Shown here: positions 1,951 to 59,668 of the stretch, in pieces
Position numbering within the stretch: the first letter of the stretch is position 1
Layout of the letters: the number at the start of each line of letters is the position of its first letter
NCBI GenBank assembly: GCA_032622095.1
Contig: CP136064.1
Span: 248,963,827-249,027,826 of the forward strand
Length of the DNA stretch: 64,000 nucleotides
DNA from: Siphonodentalium dalli
Taxonomy: Eukaryota > Mollusca > Scaphopoda > Gadilida > Siphonodentaliidae
Direction: 5' to 3'
Position numbers and translations under genes: made by a program
The notes under the pieces: generated by a model
What the model saw: the letters and a program-made list of their open reading frames with translations, nothing else
Told to the model about the DNA's origin: nothing
Databases searched by the model: none

Positions 1951-4900
1951 CTCTAGTAGCTGAGGGCGTTTTGTATGCACTTTTATGTCCAGAGCAAAAC
2001 TCTTCACGAATCCACTAATTGAAGGTACACAAACAATATTTGGTTGGTGACACATTTCCCATTGAGGGCGAAATGGGTCAAATGGCCATGCCCCTTTTTG
2101 AGCGAAGTACTACCACCCGCCGTGACTATATCTCCAGAACCGTTGGCCAAAGGGGGTCGTGTGGCCACTCAAAATGTGCGGAATGGCAACATTATGGGGG
2201 GTCAGTAATACATTTTCATATCCAAAAGTCAATGGTTTTTAAGATAATTGCCAAAAACAAAAACAAAATCCATTTTAAGGGCCCAATTTTGGGGTTCAGC
2301 ACTTTTATCTCAAAGCTGAGCCCCCAATTCGAATTTTATTGATCTATATCCATCGGTGCCACATATAGGTATAATTTCTGTACCATTATCGGATGGGATT
2401 GACCTCCAATGAGCTCTTGACTCTGAAAATCCACATTATGGGGGGTCAGTAATACATTTTCATATCCAAAAGTCAATGGTTTCTAAGATAATTGCCAAAA
2501 AACGATTTCAGCATGTTACGCACCACAAGTATACAATACCACCAATGCCACAGCATATGTATGACACTTTTTAAAGAACTATCCGAATTCTCTGATCGAC
2601 TTAAGAGCACAATTGACCACACACAATGGGATTAGCTGGAAATTGCTGCTGAGGATGTGTTGATCCCGACACACAACGTGAGCTCTTCATGACTGAACAT
2701 GCCTTGGAAACTGGTGTGCTTTACCAAAAATCAGGTAACAATTGTGCTCTAATCAACAGAAATGTACAGATTGAACAAAACAGGTTTTCAAAATTTGTTA
2801 TCAACATTTAACAGCTGATCTGATTTAAGTGACCAAGATATGAAACATGCTAAACACTTTTACTAAATGGAATGACCAGCTGTTTGCTTCATGCAGCAGC
2901 CACATGTTGCGATCCTAAAATGGGTATTGCACCTGGGCATAGTAAAAACATGTTGTAATCAGATGGGAGATGACCATATATACCAGTATATATTTCAGAA
3001 GTAATCAATTCTTACAAAAGGACAACTCATCTCACAAAAAGTTTTAGGAAATGATGGAATGATCACTATTCAATCAATAGTAGAATGAGCCTTTGTCAGT
3101 CCCACATTAGTTTTGATTGGCCATGATAGTTGCATCACTTGCAGGTTGGAGAAGATGAGGGTCTATAATTTCACTAACATAATTCTTCATAATAGCTAAT
3201 AGCCCTCATAACTTACCATTTTAAAGATATTTTCATTTTCAATACCACCTCAGGTTAAGTGGTCCTGATAATTTTATATTATGCTGATGGGTACTGCTGG
3301 ATTGATATGTTTGTAGGTCAAAGCAATTCTGTCAAGTACCATCATTTTACCTAAAGTTGGTTATTTTTGCATTGTTTGGCTAACCCGAGCAATTTGTGCA
3401 AAAGTCAGTGCCTGTATGCAACATTCAAGAACATATATACTTCAAAATTGTATTGTGTACGCTGATGTTTGGTAAACAACAGGAATAGTCATCTCAATTA
3501 TGGCCAGTTTGTAAAAACCAGCACCCATTATTAAAATATTTCACAATATACATGTTTTTTAATGTTTTCTACACATTGTGGCTTATCCTCGATTCGTTCA
3601 GATCTCTTTGCTCTACCTGAATATCATACCAAATGTATTAGCATCACCACTAAACTTGGGATGAATACTGCCAAATGAATATATTGTGATAAGGGCAGTG
3701 GAAAAATAATGGTTGAGTCTTTTCTAAATATAATTCTAGTAAAACCTACACAATACGGTCTTGGTCTGATAAGACTCAGAGTCATGTTTATTTAGGAGTA
3801 TAGACATGAAGTCCACCAGTTTCATGAAAATTAAATGGGCTCTGCACTAGTAACATCTGGACTCCTGGGACCCATTAATATTGACAAATGCAACACAAAT
3901 GAAAAATACATAGTAACTTTCCTCAAACATAGATTATAACCTGACAATCATTGTGTTTGAATCAGTGTACATATGTATATGTAGGCATGGCCATAGCATG
4001 TTTTTGAAATACTGCAGAATGCAGACCATAAATTTCACTACAATATACATGTAGTTACTGCATGTACATCACACACATAAGGCGACTGACACACATAAAC
4101 GTACCTGCAGGGTTCACAATATTTGACATGTAAAGTATATATATATCTCATGTGCCTATAACATCAAACCAAACGGTTTACAGTACTTTTACTGACATTT
4201 TTGGAGTGGCACATATACATACATAAAAAATAAAAGTCAATTTAAAGGTACGAAATGAAAAATAAATTTGTGCAACTATAATGGAGATATATATTGCATT
4301 ACAACATCCACAAATCTACAAAATCTACAACATCCACAAATCTACAAAATCTACAAAAACATCTGACTATCATAGACATTGGTAATGTGATCATTTTTCC
4401 TTGATAAGTTGAAACATGAGGGAGGATTGCATAGCATGGCTACATGCAGAATGTAGATTTGTATGTATTTATATCTGCATATCAACTGATGCTTGTATTT
4501 TTCTTCTAACTCACTCCAGGCTAGCCATTATTTGTTCTAGAATAATGTACATGTTAGGGAAATTGTAGAACCTTTATACAAAATGGTGATGCAGCCAATC
4601 AAAATTGATGTGGGACTGATAAAGACACAACCTGCTCGACTACTGAATCATACTGATTGATCAAATTGTAGTAACTCAACATTTACTAAACCTACTTGTG
4701 GGCTGAGTATAATTCAATTCAACATTAGAATACCATAAAAACACCCTGTTCTCCCATAAGTTTAAAGAAAATAACACATTGAACTCATTTACAAGTATAT
4801 TGCTAATGTGATATATGTCATTCCATTTATAACCATTTTGGCAGCCATCTCACATCAAAGGCCATGGAATCTAGATAACAAAAGATGAACTACATTCAAA

Positions 4901-5521
4901 TTATTTCACCAGGTAACCTTTTTGTAGGAGTTTTAGGTTACTGATCAAATACCGTATAATTGATGATTTCCTCAACATCTTTGTTATTGGGAAAATGTCT
5001 GTTTTTCATTCTACGACCAATATATTCCATCCAAAAACCTTATTTTCAGGGTCAAGAGCTCCTTGGAGGTCAATCTCATCCAATAATGGTACAGAAATTA
5101 TAACTATATGTGGCACCGATGGATATAGATCAATAAAATTTGAATTGGGGGCTCAGCTTTGAGATAAAAGTGCTGAACCCCAAAATTGGGCCCTTAAAAA
5201 TGGATTGTTTTTGGTTTTTGGCAATTATCTTAAAAACCATTGACTTTTGGATATGAAAATGTATTACTGACCCCCCATAATGTGGCCATTCTGCACATTT
5301 TGAGTGGTCACACGACCCCCTATGTCCAACGGTTCTGGAGATATAGTCACGGCGGGTGGTAGTACTTCGCGCAAAAAGGGGCGTGGCAATTTGACCCATT
5401 TCGCCCTCAATGGGAAATGTGTCACCAACCAAATATTGTTCGTGTACCTTCAATTAGTGGATTCGTGAAGAGTTTTGCTCTGGACATAAAAGTGCATACA
5501 AAACGCCCTCAGCTACTAGAG
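1951..5521. mobile_element. 3.6 kb non-autonomous element with 480 bp terminal inverted repeats
   Basis: 1951-2430 and 5042-5521 are near-perfect reverse complements (ends CTCTAGTAGCTGAGGGCG), flanked by TA on both sides, as expected for TA-inserting transposons. About 75 bp of the repeat (2189-2262) is present again just inside the left arm (2431-2505). The interior has no open frame of note, but it contains a further decayed inverted pair (about 3088-3135 against 4576-4625). The 107-aa frames in each arm are mirror images and not genes. Confidence 0.85.
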
Positions 5522-7538: not shown

Positions 7539-7686
7539 GCTTAAGGGTACAATTAGTTCTAATTGGAAAGATACTGTAGAATTTTCAGATAATTTCAAAA
7601 ACAGTCACCAGCTGCTACATGAGCCCGGTTATTATCCTGCGAGGAATGGTGAAGTCATCACGGACCTCAAACGATTCCTCAGTGAG
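7539..7686 (+). CDS. NAGS: NAGS exon 1 of the visible set
   Basis: Follows a pyrimidine-rich acceptor ending TTTTTCAG. One base completes a codon from a missing upstream exon, then 49 codons end in ITDLKRFLSE, which reads directly into exon 2. The frame upstream holds no ATG before a TGA at 7513-7515, so this cannot be the first coding exon. The first ~35 residues are poorly conserved, so the acceptor could be slightly different. The donor is GTGATT, a weak match. Confidence 0.8.
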
Positions 7687-10600
7687 GTGATTATTATTAA
7701 CCCTTCAATGACTGGAGCTTCCTGAAATTTTGCGATAACCCTGTGATAATGCATTCTCTTATATATGCGAGTCTCCCACATAAGAGATTGTATTGGCCTA
7801 ACAATATTTACCTTGACCTTGTAAGCCAATGCATTCTCATGTATATGCGAGGATCCCTATGGGAGACTCACATATATAAGAGAATGCACTGACACAGGAT
7901 CTTTAATGTTGCACCAGAGCATCTCCCGTCATGTAAGGGTTAACATTCTCTTCTCATTTCTCTAGGGCTTCATTATATGAACCAGCCTAGAGGTTTCAAA
8001 TTGGGATAAGTGACTTCTCCCTATTTGATTATTAGGGAGAAATGGACTATTATCAAGGAGAAGTCATAATGGCTCAAGTTCAATTTACGCCCCAACATCA
8101 CCATTCTATAATCCATAAAGTACAGTAATGCCCTAAATAATCGACTCCTTAATCACATCAGAATTATGGGTAACTTTTCAGGATTCAGTCGGAAATATGG
8201 CTTGTTGCCATTCATCGGAAAGCTCTTACTGACAGCTTTCAGATGAATGGCAACAAGCCATATTTCCGACTAAATCCTGAAAAATTAACCATAATTCTGC
8301 TGTGGTTAAGGAGTCGATTATTTAGGCCATTACCGTATTATGCAATACAATAGACCAGAATTAAAATGATTATAATGAGTAAGGACACCATTATAATAAG
8401 AAAACAAGGTTTAAATATACTGTTGGGACATATGCATATTGGTACATGAGAGAGAAGTCACTTCTCCCAAGGACAAAATTAGGGAGAAGTTACACAATTT
8501 AGGGAGTTATGAGTTATGAATTTTCGAAACAAAGTGTATTACAAAATAAAACAACTTATTTTGGGAAAAACCCCAATCACTTAAAATAGATTGCGACAGT
8601 GTAAAAATTACTTGGTTAAATTTTTTACTGTGCTCCGATAACTTTTATCCAAAAAAAAATCAAAAAAAATCATGTCTTCAGATGCTCGTATTTTGGGGAC
8701 AATTTCATAATTTGGGCAAAATTTTTACTGGCTCTAATTTGGGGGAATTTAAATGAATTCCCATACATATAATCTTTGTATGTTTTGTCATATGAATTTT
8801 GATTTATTGTAACATGCATACTCACTATAGATCAAACGTATTTTGGTAAATTTATTTCCATTAATATTAGGAGATATACAAAATTTCACCATTTGTTTTG
8901 AACAAAAAATCCATAAAAATTAGCTCGCCAATTGGCATCGTTTTCTTTACGCTGAGGAATTGAAAAATTACTTTTATTATAGCTAAACATATTTTTTTCT
9001 AGGTTGGATCTGATCCCAGAGAAGCTAGGTATTGGTTGAAGCAGTTCAAAGTTTCAGAGCATGTCCGTCCATTTGCATTAGTCCAGCTTGACCCTGATGT
9101 GTTCTCAGATGTCACACATGTGAGTGGCCCATTACATGACTATAGTATTAACATATACACATATTCAACATATACACATATTCTAAAAATAAGTGTCCCA
9201 TCGCACATGTGAGCGTTCTCAGATATCACAAAGGTGAGTGTTCTCAGATATCACACAGATGAGTGTTCTCAGACATCACACAGGAGGGCATTCTCAGACA
9301 AAATTAGGGAGAAGTGACACATTTTAGGGAGATGATATGTCCCAAGTTGCCCTCTAGGCTTGTCCCTGGTGACATCACACATGTGAGTGTTAGAATCACA
9401 GGTGAGTTTAGACATCACAGGTGAGATTTAGACATCACACAGGTTGTGTTATCAGACATCACACAGATCAGTCTTAGACATCACAGGTGAGTTTAGACAT
9501 CACACAGGTTGTGTTATCAGACATCACACGGATGAGTGTTAGACATCACACGGATGAGTGTTAGACATCACACAGTTGAGTCTTAGACATCACACAGGTG
9601 AGTGTTAGACATCAGACAGGTGAGTGTTAGACATCAGGCATGTGAGTGTTAGGTATCACACAGGTGAGTCTTAGGCATAACACAGGTGAGTGTTAGACAT
9701 CAGACAGGTGAGTGTTAGACATCACACAGGTGAGTGTTAGACATCAGACAGGTGAGTGTTAGACATCAGACAGGTGAGTGTTAGGTATCACACAGGTGAG
9801 TCTTAGGCATAACACAGGTGAGTGTTAGACATCAGACAGGTGAGTGTTAGACATCAGACAGGTGAGTGTTAGACATCACACAGGTGAGTCTTAGACATCA
9901 CACAGGTGGGGTTATCAGACATCACACAGGTGGGGTTATCAGACATCACACAGGTGGGGTTATCAGACAGCACACAGGTGGGGTTATCAGACATCACACA
10001 GGTGGGGTTATCAGACATCACACAAATGAGTGTTAGACATCACACAGGTGAGTGTTGGACATCAGGCATGTGAGTGTTAGGCATTGCCCAGGTGAGTGTG
10101 AGGCATCACACATGTGAGTGTTAGGCAGCACACAGGTGAGTGTTGGACATCACACAGGTGAGTGTTGGACATCACACAGGTAGGGTTATCAGACATCACA
10201 CAGGTGAGTGTTAGACATCACACATGTGAGTGTATGACATCACACAGTTGAGTGTTAGACATCACATAGATGAGTGTTAGACAGGTGGGGTTATCAGACA
10301 TCACACAGGTGAGTGTTAGACATCACACAGTTGAGTGTTGGACATCACACAGGTGAGTGTTAGGCATCACACAGGTGGGGTTATCAGACATCACACAGGT
10401 GAGTCTTAGACATCACACAGTTGAGTGTTGGACATCACACAGGTGAGTGTTAGGCATCACACAGTTGAGTGTTGGACATCACACAGGTGAGTGTTAGGCA
10501 TCACACAGGTGAGTGTTACACATCACACAGGTGAGTGTTAGGCATCACACAGGTGAGTGTTAGGCATCACACAGGTGAGTGTTAGACATCACACAGGTGA

Positions 10601-13600
10601 GTGTTAGACATCACACAGGTGAGTGTTAGGCATCACACAGGTGAGTGTTAGACATCACACAGGTGGGGTTATCAGACATCACACAGGTGAGTCTTAGACA
10701 TCACACAGTTGAGTGTTGGACATCACACAGGTGAGTGTTAGGCATCACACAGTTGAGTGTTGGACATCACACAGGTGAGTGTTAGGCATCACACAGGTGA
10801 GTGTTAGACATCACACAGGTGAGTGTTAGGCATCACACAGGTGAGTGTTAGGCATCACACAGGTGAGTGTTAGACATCACACAGGTGAGTGTTAGGCATC
10901 ACACAGGTGAGTGTTAGACATCACACAGGTGGGGTTATCAGACATCACACAGGTGAGTCTTAGACATCACACAGTTGAGTGTTGGACATCACACAGGTGA
11001 GTGTTAGGCATCACACAGGTGAGTGTTGGACATCACACAGGTGAGTCTTAGACATCACACTGTTGAGTGTTGGACATCACACAGGTGAGTGTTGGAAATC
11101 ACACAGGTGAGGATATCAGACATCTCACAGCTGAGTGTTAGACATCAGACAGGTGATTGTTACACACCACACAGGTGAGTCTTAGACATCACACAGTTGA
11201 GTGTTAGACATCACGCAGGTGAGTGTTAGACATCACACAGGTGAGTGTTGGACATCACACAGGTGAGTTTTGGACATCACACAGGTGAGTTTTAGACATC
11301 ACACATGTGAAACTTAGACATCACACAGGTGGGGTTATCATACATCACACAGGTGAGTGGTAGACATCACACAGGTTGTGTTATCAGACATCACACAGGT
11401 GAGCTTTAGACATCACGCATGTGGGGTTATCAGACATCACACAGGTGAGCTTTAGACATCACACAGGTGGGGTTATCAGACATCACACAGGTGGGGTTAT
11501 CAGACATCACACATGTGGGGTTATCAGACATTACAGGGATGAGTGTTAGACATCACACAGGTGAGTGTTAGACATCACACAGCTGAGTGTTAGACATCAC
11601 ACAGGTGAGTCCTAGACATCACACAGGTGAGTCCTAGACATCACACAGGTGAGTGATAGACATTACACAGGTGGGGTTATCAGACATCACACAGGTGAGT
11701 GATAGACATCACTCAGGTGGGGTTATCAGACATCACACAGGTGGGGTTATCAGACATCACACATATGAGTGTTAGACATCACACAGGTGGGGTTATCATA
11801 CATCACACAGGTGGGGTTATCAGACATCACACAGTTGAGTGTTAGACATCACGCAGGTGGGGTTATCAGACATCACACGGATGAGTGTTATGCATCACAC
11901 AGGTGAGTGTTGAACATCACACAGGTGAGACTTTGACATCACAAAGGTGAGTGTTAGACATCACACAGGTGAGTGATAGACATCACATAGATGAGTCTTA
12001 GACATCACACAGGTGGGGTTATCAGACATCACACAGGTGAGTGTTGGACATCACACAGGTGGGGTTATCAGACATCACACAGGTGGGGTTATCAAACATC
12101 ACACATGTGAGACTAGGCATCACACAGGTGGGGTTATCAGACATCACACAGGTGGGGTTATCAGACATCACACAGGTGGGGTTATCATACATCACACAGG
12201 TGGGGTTATCAGACACCACACATGTGAGTGTTAGGCATCACACAGGTGAGTGTTTGACATCACAGGTGAGTTTTAGACATCACGCAGGTGAGTATAAGGG
12301 TGCAGCTTGATCCCAAAGAGCTCTCAGACATCACACGGGTGATTATAAGCAAACTAGAAACATGAGACAAATTTAATCCCATATGTTCTCGTGTTAAATT
12401 ATATATATCTTTTTTTACATTGATGCTATGATCCAGTGAAATTATGTAATTATTTATTGTTATTCTTTACTCTTACTTCAGTTTATGCAGTACTATTTTC
12501 TTCGCACTCACTGACAATGTCCTCGGTTATGTTCGTCAAAGTTAAACAGAATTCTGATTACATAAGACTGATAATAGTGGCATGATACAGTTGTGTGAAT
12601 GACTTCTCATTACTGCACTCATGTGAAATATTGCACAAGGTGATTTTAGATTTCATTTTTATGTGTATCCATACCATGTATGGTACACATAATGCCGACA
12701 TCTGTGGATCAACTGTCCATCCATCCTTCTAGCTGTACATCTCTCTGTCCATCTATCCATCCAAATGTCCAGACAGATACTATCTGATGCAATATTTCAA
12801 ATAATTTTTATCCGATCATGTTCATATTGTATGTGCATGCTTATGATGACACACCCCTTACCTGTATAGTTTTGGTTTCAATCGGTTGATCAGGTTTAGA
12901 AAATATTGACCCTTCCAATCCATTTTGTAAAGCATGCTATCTGATGCAAAAACTTTTTTCATCTGATCTTCATATTTCTCATCTGTGATCTTGTATAGAT
13001 TTGATATTGATTTATTAACCCTTTTACTTTTGAACCAGGTTTAATCATGTAATTAAATCATGTAGTCTCAAGCTGGGACTTTTAGCTCCTATGTATTGTA
13101 TTATTGAGGAACAGGTATTAAAAAATAAATATATTATCTGCCTTGTTTTTATATGCCTGTTTTAAAAAAGCGATGTATTATGTTATTGGACCGTCCATCC
13201 ATCCGTCTTTCCCCGTCCATTCTCATTTCCGGATGATAACTGAAAGGAATGGACGTAAATTTGGTATGTGGGTTTACTAGCACAAAATACAGGTCAATTT
13301 CGAATTTCAGATTCACCCGCTAATTTTTACAAGAGTTAAGGCCCTTTTTTATAGAATTTGCACTTAATTTTCATTTCCAGTTGATAACTTTAGTATGTCT
13401 GAATTGAATGGAATAAAATTTGGTATGTGAGTTTACTAGCCCAAAATATAGGTCAAGTTTGAATTTTGGTTCCGCTCGCCAATTTTCACCTGAGTTATGG
13501 CCCATTGTTGAAATTATCACTGGTGTATGCTCCTGTTCCATGTTGTAAAGTTCCCAGCGAGAACTTCAAAAAGTGACCTTGGTACCTGTTTGTACATGAA

Positions 13601-16600
13601 CTGTTGGCTCATGTTCACACATTTTTTTTATTAAATGCGCTAAAAGAGCCTGTTCTGACCCATCCTCGGTCATTTTAACCAGAGCTAATTACAAACAAAC
13701 ATTCGAACAAAAAAAATGAAATTTCAACAAAAAGACAAAATTTGAACTCGAAATTACTATATTTTTTAGCTGAACTTTACTTGTAAAGTTTGAGCTATTG
13801 CCATGGATTGGTATCAGTCGACAATGTGTACATGTGCATGTGTGGAGACGTTCGTCAACAATTTGCATTAGCACAGGTCAGATCGTCATGAAATTTGTCA
13901 TGCATGTTAACATTGACATGCAGATGGGAACGAGTCATTTTGGGGTCATTCCTCCATTAACCATGGCGCCGGCAGCCATCTTCGATTTTACTCTTTGCAA
14001 GACTAAATCCTTTGGTATGGGCAACAAGTCATGCCGGTACCTTTGGTCAGATCATTATGAAATTTGTTATGGCTGTTGATAATGACATGTAGATGGGAAC
14101 GAGTCATTTTGGGGTCATTCAGCAAAATAACATGGCTGCCAGTGGCCATCTTGGATTTCAAAATTCAATTTATTATTCCATTCATTTCTCATCACAAAAA
14201 ATTTACTTCTTCGCATAGTTGATATAATGAACTGCAGTGTCATGGACACTTTAATTTATTTTGGTGTTACATTAAAATCATTTTGATATCTTTGTTTCTT
14301 TGTTGACAGGTTGAACAGTTTGCCTCATGTATCTCATTTCTACAGAGGAACTGTATGAGACCGGTGGTTATTGTAGGTAAACATATCGATGATTCATCAC
14401 AACTTACACCAGAAAAACTCAAGGTAAATGATTTCTCTTCTCACATGGATCTTTCTTGTTTGAATCTCCATATAATATATTTGTAAATTTTATCTTATCA
14501 GACTGATTGAATACATAGTGAAGATTTTTAAATAATGTTGATATTTTGCTGAAAACATAAATAATTTATAATTTACGATCCAGAACCTGCATTTCTATAA
14601 ATATGTTCACACAAGCCAAGTGTGTCTGATTATGATTATGATTTCGCAGAATATGGTTCTCTGATGGTGAATTTAGTGATATTCTGCACAGCGTGCGAGC
14701 ATCACCAAATTCACCCTCTGTGGACCTCATTCTGTTTAAGCCTCATCTTCTGGGAGGTATCTATAATCTCAAATTAACATTGTTTTTAGTTACTTTTTTC
14801 CTTCTGTTAAGTTTTAATATCCCCCCTAATTTGCAGAAGATAATGCATAATCAAGGTAAGTAATGGGTGAACATCACCAACTTCGACTGGTGAACTTCAA
14901 TCTGAGCTTCATAGTTGAAAAAAACTTTTTGCCCCAATTCCTTTTGTATATTATGAAAATAAAATTAGTTTCAAGTCAACTTCAATCTGATCCTAGTTCT
15001 CCCATAGCAGATGAGGCCTAAGCAGAATGAGGTTTCCAGAGGGTGAATTTGGTGAATCTAGCCCGCTGTGCGGAATATCGTCACTAAATTCACCCTCTGG
15101 CGACCTCATTCTGCAATTGTCAGACACACTATATCGAGGCTTGTTTTCACAGCAAATGAGGCTGAAGCTAGGTGCTGATTGCATGGTGCTAACGAGTCTA
15201 CTGGAGCTGAATGGTGTGCATGCACGACCGATGTTCTCTGGCAGTAACATTCTACAGTCCACACAGCCAAACCCGTGAGTGCTGCTGTTACTAACTGTAC
15301 TAACCGTTCAGCCTGTAATTCTCTTAACCCTTTCATGACGTGAGCAACGCTGGTGCAGCATTAAATATCTTGTGCCATTGCATTATCTTATATATGAGAG
15401 TCTCCCATAGGGAGCCTCGCATATATAAGATAATGCAATGGCTTACAGGTAATGGTAAATATTGTTAGGCCAATGTATTATCTTATATATGTGAGGCTCA
15501 CTATGGGAGACTCTCATATATAAGAGAATGCATTGGCACAGGGTTTTTGCAAAATTTCAGGAAGCTCCAGTCATGGAAGGGTTATCATAACTGAGATTCA
15601 ATCTGAAATGTAAAGACCATGACCTCCAATCGTTCAATTGTGACCTCTAAAGACTAAATATTTTGGAACTCCCATAGGGAATCTCGCATATATATGAGAA
15701 TGGACTGGCTTACAAGGTCAAGGTAAATATTGTTAGGCCAATGTATTTTCTTATAATTTCGAGGCTCCCTATGGGAGACTTACATGTATAAGAGAATGCA
15801 CTGGCACAGGATCTTTAATGCTGCACCAGCACAGCTCCCACCATGAAAGGGTTAAATAAAACTGAGAATCAATTTGAAAGATCAAAACCATGACCATCAT
15901 AATTATTCAATCATTCAATTTTTTTATGGTACCTATACCATATCAATGTTTATATACAGTGCCAAATGACAATACCCTTACTTTACTTAACCCTTCAAAT
16001 TGTTAAAATTAAAACACAATTACAATTCCTTGGCTTTTCTGCTTATATTTCTGTAGACATTCAGAACATGGCTTAAAGGCCCACTTATTTTTCAAATCAT
16101 AGCGGAAACCCTGTATACATAGTGTCCATTCTCACAATTATATTATGTAAAACAAATTTATACATTATGCATGATGGAGACCTAAAATATAGACATATTA
16201 AAGTTATCCTGTCAAAAAAAAAAATTTAAAGAGCAAAATTATTCTCTTTTGCAGAAACAACGGTTTCTTTTGAGCATGTCCTACTTTATACTAATTACAT
16301 CCATGCTAATATTTATATATACAACAATAGCATAGTTTTTTTGTAGATGAACGAATATTTCGCGAGGCTCCTCTTTCAACAAGATGAGATATCGTCCTTC
16401 TCAAAACACACTATGCTATTGTTGTACTTATCTTATATTGACCTTACCTTATTAGCTCAACTTTAATTTGTAAAGTTTGAGCTATTGCCATGGCTTTGTC
16501 ATCCGTGTGTGCGTGTGTACATAAGGCGTCAACAATGCAGGCTACAGGTCGTACCTTTTGTCGGATCATTATGAAATTTGTCATAGCTGTTGACATCAAC

Positions 16601-19600: not shown

Positions 19601-22600
19601 ACAAAAACTTGCCTTTTATATAGATAGATGATAGGGCTGTAACGATTCATCGTGAATTCAATGTATGATGATATGCATTCAACCGATACACATATTGTAT
19701 CATGTCGTGTCTATCGCGATACAGGAAATCAAGCAATTTCTGAAGATGGGCATGTGTAAAAGAGCAAAACCGAGAATGTTCTCTCAAGTTTAAATGTATA
19801 TTATGTGTATTTGACTCATTAGGCTAACAATTAAACTGTATCTTTATTTATAATGAACTCTACCTCCAGTTATAAACAAGTTGGTCTGATAATTCAGGTG
19901 GTATTCAATAGGAATACTAATTTAGTGTATCTTGATATGTATCGTATCATTGATAATATATCATGATTCATATCATATCATATCAGATCTGAATGAATTT
20001 TGATACGGAGGTTTGACTGAGTTATCGACCTTTATTTGTAAATTTTTGACAATTTATGTCTGTCCGGCTTGGTAACTCAAACAAATATGAACTGATTCCA
20101 ATAAATTTGGGTATTCATGCAGGTTTTATTCAGTCATCACAGGCCAGATTAAAACATCTTTCGAATTGAGCCACATCAGAAAATTAATAAACCTCAGCGG
20201 AAAGCCACCTTGGCAGGGGGGATACTCTGGGTGGCGGTGGATACTCTGGGTGGGGTGTACTCTGGGTGGGGGATACTCTGATCAGGGAATACTCTGGGCA
20301 GGGGATACTCTAGGCGGGGAGGGGGATACTCTGGGCGGGGGAGATACTCTGGGAGGGGGTTACTCTGGACGGCGGGATACTCTGGGTGGTGGTGGATACT
20401 CTGCTCAGCTGGGGATAATCTGGGCGGTGATTGATACTCTGTATGGCAGGGGATACACTGTATGGCAGGGGATACTCTGTGCATCAGGGGGTACTCTGGG
20501 TGGCGGGGGATACTCTGTGCAGCAGGGGATACTCTGGGTGGGCGGGGAATACTCTGTGCATCAGGGGGTAGTCTGGGTGGCGGGGGATACTCTGGGCAGC
20601 GGGGGATACTCTGCACTTGTTGTGATTGGTAGTCAACTGTATATTATGATGCAATTCTGAGTCATTTGCAGAATGAGGTCCCCAGAGGGTGAATTTAGTG
20701 ATGCTATCCCACACAGTGGGCTAATTTCACCAAATCACCCTCTTGGAACCTCATTCTGCATGGCCTCATCTGCTATGGGAGACATGGACTCAGATTGAAG
20801 TTCCCAATTGGGGAATATTAAGTGATGTTCACCCATTGGGAACCTCTATTTTGCAATGTGTTGTCTGCTAATTTGTGGATATAGATAAACTAAACTAAAA
20901 AAAATAGAATCTACGTGAGAAACTTTCCAGAGAAGATGAGGCCTGAGCAGAATCAGGTCCCCAGAGGGTGAATTTAGTGATGCTAGCCGCTATGTGAATA
21001 GCATCACTAAATTCACCCTCTGGGGACCTCATTCTGCAAATGACAGGCACCTTATTCTCAGGCCTGATTATGATGCAAGCAAGAACTTAATTTTCCAGAT
21101 CACATTATACAAATTTGGTGTTTTGACTCGGGCTAACCTGGCAGAGGTTATTACTGTTATAATTTAATTAAATTTTTATTTTTTTTATTTTAAATGTTTG
21201 TTAATTTGGGCAAGGAGCTCAAATCTTAAAAAAAAAAAAAAAAATTTAAAAACATTTTTTTTTAACGATCAAACTGTTTAAATGATCAAAATGTGCACAA
21301 AGCACACACAGAGGCAGGCCCCTAATGCACAAAGGGGACACAGACCCCTTTTGAAGGGGCTGCAGTCCCCTCCGAGTGTTTCATCTGGTATAGTGATAAT
21401 TCAACCATAGTAATCTGAGCACATTTTGAGCACAACTGTATGCATTTTGATCACTGCTGTATTGTAATGCAATTATATAGTGCATTGCAGTATGATACAG
21501 CAGTGATCAAAATATACATGTATTTGTATACAAAAACAATGACTTGTTTATGTTTATAGATGGTAAATATAGAAATGTGTGTTAACTTTTGCCATCAAGA
21601 CTTCTGTCAGATGAATAGGGATGATAAGTATTTATATATTTACTTATTTATGGAAGGTCATAACTTGAGGAGCACGAGGGGAAGAGGCTTTCCCTTAGAA
21701 ACAAACTATTTGCTATATCTGGACGTATATTATATTTGCAGGTTATTGCCAACATTAATATTCCAGCAGACCTATCCATTGAGAAACCCTGGTGTACTCC
21801 GGAGATTAAGGATCGAGTAAGCTCTTATTTATGAAAAACACTGATCATGCATCTCAGTCTATTTCATTTTTAAGTCATTATATTCATGTTTGAGTAAATT
21901 GAGTTATTCACAGACACTAGATACCTGAACAGCTTATCAAAAACTTCGAAATAAAAGCATCATGAGAAATCACCCTGCTCTCATGTTGAATCTACAGTTT
22001 TCCTTTTCGGAAGGAAATTTCTCCCAATAGGTGATTTGATTACATTAACATGTCAACTTTGCCCCTTTTCGACTAGGAATCTGTCGATTATTATTAGGCT
22101 TGCCACTATTTGATTAATCAGCTAACCTTCAACAGGTGTGGTAGTCGATGGTTTAGTATTTACTTTCATCGATGAATCACTCAAGGGGGATGGGGTGGGT
22201 ATGGTTGTGTATGTAAGCAGGACTATGCACTGATACCATGTCTGGAAGTAACAGTTAACAGTGTATGCAGTACATTTTACCCCGACAGCCTGTTCTTATT
22301 GCTGCTTCCTTTGCCTTTGCAGTCGCAGTCAACGTCTGGCAGTCATCTTTGATTATGTGTGACTTGTTCTGACAGTCTTTGGTGGGCCAGCGGCTTCCTT
22401 TGCCTTTGATATCAGCGCTGATGCAACTTATAAAATGTCCAGGTTATACATGGCAGTAAAAGTGACTGCATCCCCGTCACCCCCACAAAAGCTCAAATAT
22501 CTGCCACTGTCTACCTATGTCCTTGTTAACTTTAGTGCAAGTGCACGCTGCAGTTTTGCACCTTTAGCCGACTTAATGCGAAGCACGTGCTCTGCCGAAA

Positions 22601-34600: not shown

Positions 34601-37600
34601 CCAAAGCATGTAATGTAGATATAAAGTGGTTTTTGTCAAGTTTCTTTTAAATGTTTTGGTGGATTGAATTACAATGGAGATAAATGTACCCTGTTTCATT
34701 ATATATTCGGGGATTTGAGCATAAAAACAGTTTGTGAACTCACCGGCAAGCCAACTCTTTCACAAACTGTTTTCAGACTCGAATCTCTGAATATCCAACT
34801 TAACAGAGTTTATCTCATAATTACAGAATACGGACCAGTAATTATCACCAGTAATTATCACCAGTATTCAGAAAGTTTATAGATGTCCATGATATATAGA
34901 AAGTTATTATATCTCAAGAAATCCACTAAGTCTATCCAAGCCTGAATATAGTGTGTCCCCAGAGGGTGAATTTAGTGACACTATCCCGCATGGTGGGCTA
35001 GCATCACCAAATTCACCCTCTGGGGACCTCATTCTGCTTAGGCCTCAACTGCTATGGGAGCCCCAGGATCATATTGAAGTTCCCAGTTGAAGTTGGTGAT
35101 GTTCACCCATTGGTCACCTTGATTATGCAATTTATCTTCTGCAAATTGGGGATATAGAGACTTCCCAGAAGGGAAAAAGTAACTATAAACAATGTTAATT
35201 TGAGGCTATAGATATAGGTGAGGCCTATGCAGAATGAGGTCCCCAGAGGGTGAATTTGGTGATGCTAACCCGATGTCTGGCCTAGCATCACTAAATTCAC
35301 CCTCTGGGGACCTCATTTAGCAGATGACGGACACACTAAACTTAGGCTTGAGTCTATTAGCTACAAGCTGCACTTTAAACCTTTCTATAGTAAATGGATT
35401 CTCCCACCAAGTTATAAAACTTTACATTGGAATGGTCTGTTATTCATCTGGAGGGATGTTTGGGAACACTAAGCAGGCGACAGATAATACAACTGCAGAA
35501 GGTGCTATATGTATTGGAGGGAAATGTTCAGATAATAAATTCAACAAACAACCTATGGTCGATTGTTGGAACTTATTGTCTGATCATTTCCTAAGGGATA
35601 ACTACTTGTCAATGAGTATTTAGTATAGAAAGCGTTAAAAATTCAGTTATAATTTGTTTACAAGAATTTGTTCATTCTTCTTTTTTTTTGGTCTTCCAGG
35701 TACTTCAAACATTGTGAGGGTAGCTGGAGCAATGGTAAATGGATAGTATTTTGGTAAGTTTTGATATTTTAGAAATTGTGGAATCTTATATATAAATTTA
35801 CATATAAATTTGTATTATATTTTCATAAACTCTTTATGTCAAAATATAAATCATATCCCCACTTCAAGAGGACATAACGTGTTATCCTACTCTCATGATG
35901 TTATGCTACTCTCAGCATTGCATCATGACGTCAATTTTTTAGTCACTCGGTATCCTTGCGTGTTATTTTAACAGAAGTGGCTGGTGGTGTTGTAGCTAAA
36001 TTTAAGAACATATGTGACCCACCATATCAAATCCAGTCGGAAGTCGGGATTTTTTTTACCCTGTGCCAATGCATTCTCTTATATATGCGAGTCGACCATA
36101 GGTCGCCTCGCATATATAAGAGAATGCATTGGCCTAACAATTTTTTATAATTTTTTCTTGTATTCTTTAACAATTTTATAATTTCACCCATACAGAGCCC
36201 CAGACAAACATGAGCAGACGACACTCTTCTATATGCTTCTATATATGTGTGGGGCTCCCTGCAGGGTAATGGATGTTTTTTATTTTATGTCCTAAAAATT
36301 TTAAGAAACATTTATTTAAAAAACATGATAAAAAATTGTTAGGCCAATGCATTCTCTTATATATGCAAGGCGACCTATGGTCGACTCGCATATATATAAG
36401 AGAATGCATTGGCACAGGGTAAAAAAAATCCCGACTTACGACTGGATTTGATACGGCGGGTCACATATTATAGGTTTAACCATGTGTTTTATTGTAGTCC
36501 AGCTCAAATTTGTATAGAAAATATAATAAACACAACAGTCAACTCTTCTGGGTAGCGTACAGGTTTTCACCTCTCGTGAGATGCAATGATTATTTTCACC
36601 TGGCTAGCGCCTCGTAAAAATAATCCTCTGTGTCTCACTTGAGGAGAAAACCGTACGCTATTCAGAACAGTTAACTATTGTCTATATATCCATACTTTTT
36701 ATTGAATGGAAAATCTTACATAGTATATCTAGTGAGAACATGGAGTACACACATCAATCATTAAATATTGAACATGGAGTACACAGATCAATCATTAAAT
36801 ATTGAACATGGAGTACACAGATCAATCATTAAATATTGAACATGGAGTACACAGATCAATCATTAAATATTGAACATGGAGTACACAGATCAATCATTAA
36901 AGATTGAACATGGAGTACACAGATCAATCATTAAATATTGAACATGGAGTACACAGATCAATCATTAAAGATTGAACATGGAGTACACAGATCAATCATT
37001 AAAGATTGAACATGGAGTACACAGATCAATCATTAAATATTGAACATGGAGTACACAGATCAATCATTAAATATTGAACATGGAGTACACAGATCAATCA
37101 TTAAAGATTGAACATGGAGTACACAGATCAATCATTAAATATTGAACATGGAGTACACAGATCAATCATTAAATATTGAACATGGAGTACACAGATCAAT
37201 CATTAAAGATTGAACATGGAGTACACAGATCAATCATTAAATATTGAACATGGAGTACACAGATCAATCATTAAAGATTGAACATGGAGTACACAGATCA
37301 ATCATTAAATATTGAACATGGAGTACACAGATCAATCATTAAAGATTGAACATGGAGTACACAGATCAATCATTAAAGATTGAACATGGAGTACACAGAT
37401 CAATCATTAAATATTGAACATGGAGTACACAGATCAATCATTAAATATTGAACATGGAGTACACAGATCAATCATTAAAGATTGAACATGGAGTACACAG
37501 ATCAATCATTAAATATTGAACATGGAGTACACAGATCAATCATTAAATATTGAACATGGAGTACACAGATCAATCATTAAAGATTGAACATGGAGTACAC

Positions 37601-40600
37601 AGATCAATCATTAAATATTGAACATGGAGTACACAGATCAATCATTAAAGATTGAACATGGAGTACACAGATCAATCATTAAAGATTGAACATGGAGTAC
37701 ACAGATCAATCATTAAAGATTGAACATGGAGTACACAGATCAATCATTAAATATTGAACATGGAGTACACAGATCAATCATTAAAGATTGAACATGGAGT
37801 ACACAGATCAATCATTAAAGATTGAACATGGAGTACACAGATCAATCATTAAAGATTGAACATGGAGTACACAGATCAATCATTAAAGATTGAACATGGA
37901 GTACACAGATCAATCATTAAAGATTGAACATGGAGTACACAGATCAATCATTAAATATTGAACATGGAGTACACAGATCAATCATTAAAGATTGAACATG
38001 GAGTACACAGATCAATCATTAAAGATTGAACATGGAGTACACAGATCAATCATTAAAGATTGAACATGGAGTACACAGATCAATCATTAAAGATTGAACA
38101 TGGAGTACACAGATCAATCATTAAAGATTGAACATGGAGTACACAGATCAATCATTAAATATTGAACATGGAGTACACAGATCAATCATTAAAGATTGAA
38201 CATGGAGTACACAGATCAATCATTAAAGATTGAACATGGAGTACACAGATCAATCATTAAAGATTGAACATGGAGTACACAGATCAATCATTAAATATTG
38301 AACATGGAGTACACAGATCAATCATTAAAGATTGAACATGGAGTACACAGATCAATCATTAAATATTGAACATGGAGTACACAGATCAATCATTAAAGAT
38401 TGAACATGGAGTACACAGATCAATCATTAAAGATTGAACATGGAGTACACAGATCAATCATTAAATATTGAACATGGAGTACACAGATCAATCATTAAAG
38501 ATTGAACATGGAGTACACAGATCAATCATTAAAGATTGAACATGGAGTACACAGATCAATCATTAAATATTGAACATGGAGTACACAGATCAATCATTAA
38601 AGATTGAACATGGAGTACACAGATCAATCATTACAGATTGAACATGGAGTACACAGATCAATCATTAAAGATTGAACATGGAGTACACAGATCAATCATT
38701 AAAGATTGAACATGGAGTACACAGATCAATCATTAACCCATTACCCAACAGAAGGGCCCTGTGCCAATGCATTCTCTTATATATGCGAGTCGACCATAGG
38801 TCGCCTCGCATATATAAGAGAATGCATTGGCTTAACAAATTAAAAATTATAAAATTGTTAAAGAATGTAAGAAAAAATGGTAAAAAGTGTTAAAAAAAGA
38901 TTTGTTTTTAGGCCTATGGTCGACTCGCATATATAAGAGAATGCATTGGCACAGGGCTAACTGTAACTATCACAATGTGGTCAAGGAGCCGGTTCCAATG
39001 ATATCCATATTTGTATGGTTCTATTGAGACAGACCGAAGATATTTTAGGCTGTTGAAGCTTTATTTGGCCGGTTTTGGCCGGTTTGTTGGGTAAAGGGTT
39101 AAAGATTGAACATGGAGTACACAGATCAATCATTAAAGATTGTCTATGTCTTCCTATAATAAGTGTTATAAATCTAGTTTCCTGTGTATAAGATAATATA
39201 TATGAATCGAGACCCCTGTCCAGAAACGCATCTTTATTTCAAATTTTCTGGTATAATACATACAATCAATTTGTGACATGATACTCCTAGCCAAAACGTT
39301 GTTTAACCCTTTACCCAACAGAAGGGCCCTGTGCCAATGCATTCTCTTATATATGCGAGTCGACCATAGGTCGCCTCGCATATATAAGAGAATGCATTGG
39401 CTTAACACATTAAAAATTATAAAATTGTTAAAGAATGTAAGAAAAAATGGTAAAAAGTGTTAAAAAAAGATTTGTTTTAGGCCAATGCATTCTCTTATAT
39501 ATGCGAGGCGACCTATGGTCGACTCGCATATATAAGAGAATGCATTGGCACAGGGCATAACTGTAACTATCACAATGTGGTCAAGGAGCCGGTTCCAATG
39601 ATATCCATATTTGTATGGTTCTATTGAGACAGACCGAAGATATTTTAGGCTGTTGAAGCTTTATTTGGCCGGTTTTGGCCTGGTTTGTTGGGTAAAGGGT
39701 TAATGGGTAACCAATAAGTGGTAAGTGGGTGTCTGACCAGGTAACAACATCATGTAGGGTTAGAGAAAATCACACCCAGCATCCCGGGATGATAGTAAAA
39801 AGTCAAAATGAAATGCTGGCTGACGGCCCGAAGGCTTTTTGTTTGATATGTCAAATTAGGATAAGCTGAAAGAAAAATGGCCTGAAACCAATTAGTCACA
39901 TTTGTTATATAGCAAGCACAAACTTGGCTACTTTGAGTTATGTTTGCCAGAATGCTTGCGTTTATACCACTATTGGATCCTCAGACCATATATAGACCCC
40001 GGCCCACATGGAGTTAAATGTGCTCTAAATGATATAGATATGAGTCTATATAAGATTAATAAAGGACAACGTGAGTAAATTTCAGTGTAGGAAAAAATGT
40101 TCATTACTCATTTTTCCGGCCCCGACACACCCATATTCACCCACCCCCACCTTGTGTCTGGTAAAATGCATGTCATGAATCTCTACTCTGTGTCCGTATA
40201 GAGATCATAATCCACCACTTCAAAATGGGGACGTGTTCAAGTTCTGACAGGGAAGGTTATAACATTGACACAAACATTGCAGCTATAATATATTTCTTGA
40301 ATAATATCTGTTCCTCGGTAATAATTATGTACCGATATTGAAGGATATTCCACAGTAAGTGTAGGTTCCAGCTCGAGATTGCATGCATGAACTATGTCAA
40401 ATTGCCAAGTCTGATTTGCATCCCTTACAGTCGTGGAATTTCTTCCGGGTATGGGTAGCATGACCCCTACTGTGAAATAGATTATTAAGGAACATGTACA
40501 CTAACAAAGAAATATATTCCCTGCTTTGTTTGTTGAATGCTATGAAGTTCCCCGTCAGAACATAACAAAGTTCCCATAATTTAAACGGGTGGAATATAAT

Positions 40601-58934: not shown

Positions 58935-59668
58935 ATGGGGCGCCATTCTTCTATTTATTACCAATTTTGTGATATAAATAATTCATTTTGTGATAACACA
59001 AGATGAATATATGATATCACAATATCGAATATATGATTTCATAAAATTGTAAGCATAAAAAAGTAAGCATTTAGTGATATCACATATTTGATAATTCAAT
59101 TTTTTTTATATCATATATTCATTTTGTGATATAAATAATTCGGATGAAAAGACTATTTATTGATATCACTAATATTACAGGTTAAATTTTATGATATCAC
59201 AAAATCGAATATATGATATCGGTAAATATTTTATAATATCACAAAATGATTTTTTGATATCACAAAATCGAATTATTGATATCATAAAATAGTAAGCATT
59301 TAGTTATATCAATAATTTGATTTTGTGATATCATAAAACGTTGGGGAATTAGTGATATCACAAAACAAGTAAGAATTTAGTGATATCAATAGTTCGAATT
59401 TATGATGTCATAAAATGATTTAACGATATCAAAATTGTTGAAGGAATAGTAGCCCAGCTATGTCATTTTCTATTGATTGATATCACAAAAGGAATTGGTG
59501 AAATCACAAATTGGAATTAGTTATATCATAAAATAATTTTGTGATGTCATAAAATATTTAATGACATCATATAATCGATTTTGTGATATCATATATTCAG
59601 TTCACTTAGTGATATCATGAATTATTGATATAACTAAATAGGTAATAAATAGAAGAGCGGCGCCCCAT
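58935..59668. mobile_element. Fold-back element filled with GATATCA repeats
   Basis: Ends ATGGGGCGCCATTCTTCTAT and its complement near 59645-59668. The interior is an irregular series of TTTTGTGATATCA and TGATATCACAAAAT words in both orientations, with no coding. Confidence 0.75.

Follow-up and report, generated by a model that had tools for sequence, protein, structure and literature searches.

How does the spliceosome keep to the right 5' splice site when an intron opens with dozens of donors stronger than its own? This question is raised by intron 2 of a NAGS-like gene of the scaphopod Siphonodentalium dalli, located on the plus strand of a stretch of 64,000 nucleotides (nt) of contig CP136064.1 (hereafter the window, to which all coordinates refer). 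The intron begins with a tandem array of around 130 units and 63 consensus donors, which would put 5' splice-site choice to a severe test in nature. Our preferred answer, to which we give a probability of about three in four on the basis of the sequence, is that the array is a minisatellite of the type called mirage, which arose by slippage where exon 2 meets its intron and is now mostly a tolerated passenger, perhaps with low-level mis-splicing. For NAGS biology the array would matter only if RNA showed that the decoy donors are used.

The gene was identified by its coding content. The segments 7539-7686, 9003-9119 and 14310-14423 give a single open frame when spliced, and the hand-joined translation of eight exons has Pfam matches to NAT (3.1e-10) and AA_kinase (3.3e-06). 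In addition, nine distinct sequences of the PDB match part of this translation, including 3s6k, 3zzi and 4k30, the last named mitochondrial N-acetylglutamate synthase. The 3' end of exon 2 lies at 9119 in phase 0, with the junction CAT|GTGAGT, and the last residues of the exon fall in a gapped stretch of the PDB alignments. The features on which the argument depends are the following.

7539-7686, plus strand: coding exon of the NAGS-like gene on the exon 1 side of the joined frame (open-frame join)
9003-9119, plus strand: exon 2, 117 nt, phase 0, ending in GATGTGTTCTCAGATGTCACACAT, putative source of the repeat unit (open frame, Pfam, PDB)
9120-9125, plus strand: authentic 5' splice site GTGAGT of intron 2, as predicted by the gene model
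9120-14309, plus strand: intron 2, 5190 nt (gene model)
9200-9298, plus strand: 25-bp units, nearest in sequence to the exon junction, for example GTGAGTGTTCTCAGATATCACACAG (Tandem Repeats Finder)
9210-9212, plus strand: in-frame TGA, upstream of every GTGAGT decoy
9358-9389, plus strand: shorter, gapped copy of the longer exon end (GCTTGTCCCTGGTGACATCACACATGTGAGTG), with 15 exact junction bases
9371-12293, plus strand: main array, mostly of 22- and 24-bp units (Tandem Repeats Finder, unit splitting)
12300-12344, plus strand: longer, diverged 3' terminal copy of the exon 2 end and donor, frame VQLDPKELSDITR against VQLDPDVFSDVTH (33/45 bases, in register)
14310-14423, plus strand: exon 3, to which any exon 2 donor would be joined (open-frame join)

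Sequence comparison gives good support to an origin of the array in the 5' splice site of its own gene. The 25-bp units share 25 of 28 bases with the junction GTGTTCTCAGATGTCACACATGTGAGTG (0/1000 shuffles attain their score of 41), which bears out the proposal of a preliminary description of this locus that the unit comprises the last bases of exon 2 plus the donor. The tested stretch of the 24-bp units also exceeded all 1000 shuffles in its likeness to the exon junction. Taken alone, the 22-bp core is moderately exon-like, its score being reached by 3/1000 shuffles, and it equals the 25-bp form GTGAGTGTTCTCAGACATCACACAG minus CTC; this exact form is absent from the window, and the unit at 9259 departs from it in having an A at +1. 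The 12 segments most similar to exon 2 were all located within 8941-12420, that is, in the exon and the array. When 14 junctions of the gene (30 nt on each side, leaving out the acceptors of exons 1 and 4) were compared with their neighbouring 6 kb, only the exon 2 donor had array copies (10 hits), while four junctions had one match each, of 12 to 19 bases, and nine had none. The array adjoins the very boundary from which it derives, beginning at about 9200 in an intron that starts at 9120. Elsewhere in the window, a search at E up to 1 gave one 11-base match of the 24-bp unit as the only related sequence, and no dispersed satellite was seen. Eight other arrays chosen from the Tandem Repeats Finder output contained no AGGT[A/G]AG on either strand and a single GT[A/G]AGT in one of them. 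Neither an exact 28-base pattern in viral contigs nor an exact 18-base pattern in prokaryote genomes was found, searches with little power for an animal repeat. Since the exon codes for a conserved enzyme, we infer that it was the source of the repeat.

Exon-like copies sit at both edges of the array, and its core looks derived. The copy at 12300-12344 matches exon 2 at 15/21 bases upstream of the unit and at 18/24 within it. Over 63,980 positions on each strand, 15/21 was reached only by the exon and by this copy and 14/21 at four other places, two per strand, the 21-base stretch having been chosen after the likeness had been noticed. Because of these four places, the weight of the copy lies in its in-register position at the array edge. 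Further upstream the likeness amounts to 10/30 bases. In frame, 12306-12338 reads LDPKELSDITR against LDPDVFSDVTH of the exon, with several conservative changes and a lean towards third positions judged by eye. At the other edge, the copy at 9358-9389 contains the 15 exact bases TCACACATGTGAGTG and scores 30, a value reached by 0/1000 shuffles (highest shuffle 29); its part upstream of the unit is weak alone (55/2000 shuffles). An exon likeness extending upstream without register was also considered and was weak, with 63 and 55 of 2000 shuffles. Both edge copies, which would record how such an array is born, are additions to the account given in the preliminary description. Around the 5' copy, the segment 9337-9389 shows an acceptor-like TTGCCCTCTAG, then the gapped exon copy and then GTGAGTG, so that 9358-9382 could spell a cryptic microexon of 25 nt, which would cause a frameshift.

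Tandem Repeats Finder resolved 9200-9298 with period 25 and 4.0 copies, and 9371-12293 with period 22 and 130.8 copies. Unit splitting of 9371-12345, anchored on the 22-bp consensus and not covering the 25-bp units, gave 134 rows, among which 91 measure 22 bp, 31 measure 24 bp and 12 have other lengths; 67 of the rows are distinct, and the first and the last three are not true units. The array that had been placed at 9119-12299 is therefore real, with later units of 22 or 24 bp as described, but its extent needs correction, the repeats starting near 9200 and ending at about 12345. GTGAGT occurs 72 times in 9120-12345 including the authentic site, which leaves 71 decoys, all running in the sense strand; 200 dinucleotide shuffles of the same segment gave a mean of 4.9 and a maximum of 14, and for CAGGTGAGT a mean of 0.3 and a maximum of 2. 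Outside the array region the window contains 12 GTGAGT on the plus strand and 12 on the minus strand. CAG|GTGAGT is found in 63 decoys and nowhere else in the window on either strand. The figure of well over a hundred decoys given earlier agrees only with the loose count of rows starting with GT (109/134), the exact counts of 71 and 63 being lower. GT is kept in 102 of the 122 full-length units of 22 or 24 bp, and many units thus carry the splice signal.

This kind of repeat is already published, in the mirages of amphioxus and in the donor minisatellite of human IFI6. Mirages are minisatellite-like repeats across exon-intron boundaries in amphioxus, described in Adh3 and in the globins BflGb6 and BflGb9; the units of Adh3 measure 10-72 bp and show somatic instability (PMC3087553). 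TnC is a further mirage, with similar repeats in PGBD5 (PMC3902484). The array of S. dalli resembles them in its tandem copies of a boundary placed beside that boundary, many with splice signals, and in a unit within the size range of Adh3. Unlike them, it has far more copies than the 6 and 3 of the BflGb6 haplotypes and contains 63 decoys closer to the donor consensus than the authentic site. We make no claim on prior publication of the array, as the literature searches did not combine NAGS with minisatellites; within this rarely described kind of repeat, it appears to be a large case.

In the mirage-type origin that we favour, about 25 bp covering the end of exon 2 and the 5' splice site would have been duplicated, by slippage or unequally, placing a second junction copy in intron 2, and the imperfect repeat TGATGTG...TGAGTGG may have served as the slip point. 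This copy would then have expanded through repeated unequal exchange. Both shorter forms are present in the array; the 22-bp line would have come from the 25-bp form without CTC, and the 24-bp unit would represent a separate line. Splicing would most likely stay at 9119, held there by exon definition, and the array would be mostly a tolerated passenger, perhaps with some splicing noise. The part of the array that has changed least, 10375-10950, contains recurring runs of 7 and of 6 identical units. When 90 of the 91 22-bp units were divided among eight bins, 10300-11000 proved the most uniform. A search for a higher-order repeat, made by autocorrelation of the whole array and not by shuffling of the recurring runs, gave no significant signal (the best lag was 14 of 132, with a shuffle maximum of 0.15).

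The strength of the decoys was compared with that of the authentic donor using a donor weight matrix and pairing with the 5' end of U1. By the matrix, 76/336 GT sites of the array equal or exceed the score of the authentic donor and 70/336 exceed it, compared with 13/3401 GT sites on the plus strand outside the array. Pairing with U1 gave -6.7 kcal/mol for the authentic site and -12.2 to -14.1 kcal/mol for the printed CAG|GTGAGT decoys, and for 116/336 array GT sites the pairing equals or exceeds that of the authentic site in strength. The statement that most 22-bp units carry CAG|GTGAGT (59/91), a better donor than the authentic CAT|GTGAGT, was thus confirmed by both measures. The stop noted earlier at 9210-9212 is also there as a TGA, and 71/71 joins of GTGAGT decoys to exon 3 end at it. 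As all 71 lie past this codon, their use would cost protein, probably through transcripts fit for nonsense-mediated decay. A single GT site close to the start of a unit, CAT|GTGAGC at 9208/9209, precedes the stop and scores below the authentic donor. Acceptor-like AG dinucleotides, with at least 12/18 pyrimidines before them (the value of the weakest of seven authentic acceptors measured), amount to 1/352 in the array against 380/3026 outside; the array offers almost only donors. Pseudo-exons within it are unlikely by the same count, a result partly trivial given the repeat composition.

These properties could also suit a regulatory decoy array, in which U1 small nuclear ribonucleoprotein (snRNP) on the decoys would compete with 9119 and a decoy-spliced share, growing with array length and degraded, would tune NAGS output. 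The stronger sites and the common stop at 9210 speak for it. A splice-donor minisatellite of human IFI6 was reportedly described by Turri et al. in 1995, with a unit said to be of 12 bp and to span the exon-intron boundary. According to a citing statement, two downstream repeat units of IFI6 (6-16, G1P3) serve as donors and give isoforms (PMC4526556), whereas here every GTGAGT decoy lies past the stop. In TERT, VNTR6-1, a 38-bp intronic variable number tandem repeat of 24-66.5 copies, affects splicing as judged by its deletion (PMC11830802); it is likewise a long intronic minisatellite, but its effect is ascribed to G-quadruplexes and the accessible text describes no derivation from a splice site. 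Tandem repeats that alter human gene structure, some through new splice sites, have been reported (PMC2812944).

Conservation within the units favours such a decoy function only in part. Positions +2 to +4 never vary among the 91 22-bp units (about 0.03 in a model with overdispersion and rate variation), and all 31 24-bp units keep GT, although the sequence there is GTGGGG, with variation at +3 and +4. However, the G at +1 is lost in 20/91 22-bp units and is the second most changed of 22 positions among the 42 distinct ones, and, taken together, the nine donor positions show no significantly better preservation than the other positions of the unit (permutation 0.14). Selection on the donor positions is thus not shown, and there is no clear preservation for a purpose because +1, expected to be conserved if donors were kept, is so often lost. 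In amphioxus, moreover, the data on Adh3 and reverse transcription PCR of the globins suggest that regular splicing is undisturbed by mirages (PMC3087553), and splicing of Adh and TnC stays accurate (PMC3902484). We regard a regulatory decoy array as unlikely, and as quite unlikely its form as a length-variable splicing attenuator, in which stronger decoys would send a share of NAGS transcripts to decay and array length would set the output. If true, the length would control an enzyme making the urea-cycle activator and natural length differences would be functional alleles. The sequestering of U1 and the length-dependent control of NAGS suggested in the preliminary description find no support in the present sequence analysis.

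Several points weigh against a mirage-type passenger all the same. Normal splicing of this gene is carried over by analogy from other genes, and mirage sites could act as cryptic splice sites (PMC3087553). Tolerance by splicing is not self-evident, because U1 pairs more strongly with the CAG|GTGAGT decoys than with the authentic donor. The invariance of +2 to +4 and the GT of all 24-bp units could hint at constraint. Finally, the boundaries of mirage clusters escape homogenisation (PMC3087553); three of four sequence features of mirages are found here, and on this fourth one the sequence is equivocal, with exon-like edges and a most uniform bin at 10300-11000 but no smooth grade of divergence from edge to core.

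That exon-end duplications shifted or created intron 2 itself, by mirage-driven intron turnover, is improbable. The first human intron presumably lies about 11 codons upstream of intron 2, and for this reason intron positions seem to differ between human NAGS and this gene; the comparison spans two species. This human intron begins after c.426 (PMC10623101), and a gain of introns from mirages has been proposed (PMC3087553). However, the acceptor junction of exon 3 (30 nt on each side) was not detected a second time within 6 kb at E up to 0.05, and the best exon 2 windows were, as said, confined to the exon and the array.

Very improbable is a U1 platform without splicing, where the array would load U1 snRNP on the nascent transcript and shield the intron from premature polyadenylation. 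Its U1-complementary sites are sense-only, and the array contains no AATAAA/ATTAAA signal where the 1964 nt of intron 2 that follow it contain six, but introns 4 and 5 hold 14 and 8 of them (in 3747 and 3989 nt) with no such donor array seen. An unrelated minisatellite resembling exon 2 by chance or convergence, for which the moderate likeness of the 22-bp core might speak, is next to negligible, given that the 25-bp units, the tested 24-bp stretch and both edge copies beat all 1000 shuffles and that the 12300 copy extends in register past the unit.

The window contains other repeats. A degenerate array of 21-22 bp rich in TGATATCA is found at 58991-59575, with TGATATCACA units and a similar period. 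It was considered as a relative of the NAGS array and rejected, its scores being reached by 28, 11 and 285 of 500 shuffled units for the 25-, 22- and 24-bp forms, respectively; the 22-bp likeness is borderline since 11/500 shuffles reach it, and kinship is not convincing. Another intron of the NAGS-like gene holds a G-rich 19/38-bp array (GGGGGATACTCTGGGTGGC) at 20217-20613, and a 34-bp tandem array of about 59 copies with 98% matches occupies 36736-38736. An Rfam scan of the whole window and a Pfam search with ten other chosen reading frames each gave 0 matches. Two near-identical reading frames of 107 amino acids lie in opposite orientation at 2019-2342 (plus strand) and 5130-5453 (minus strand), which suggests an inverted repeat or a mobile-element pair.

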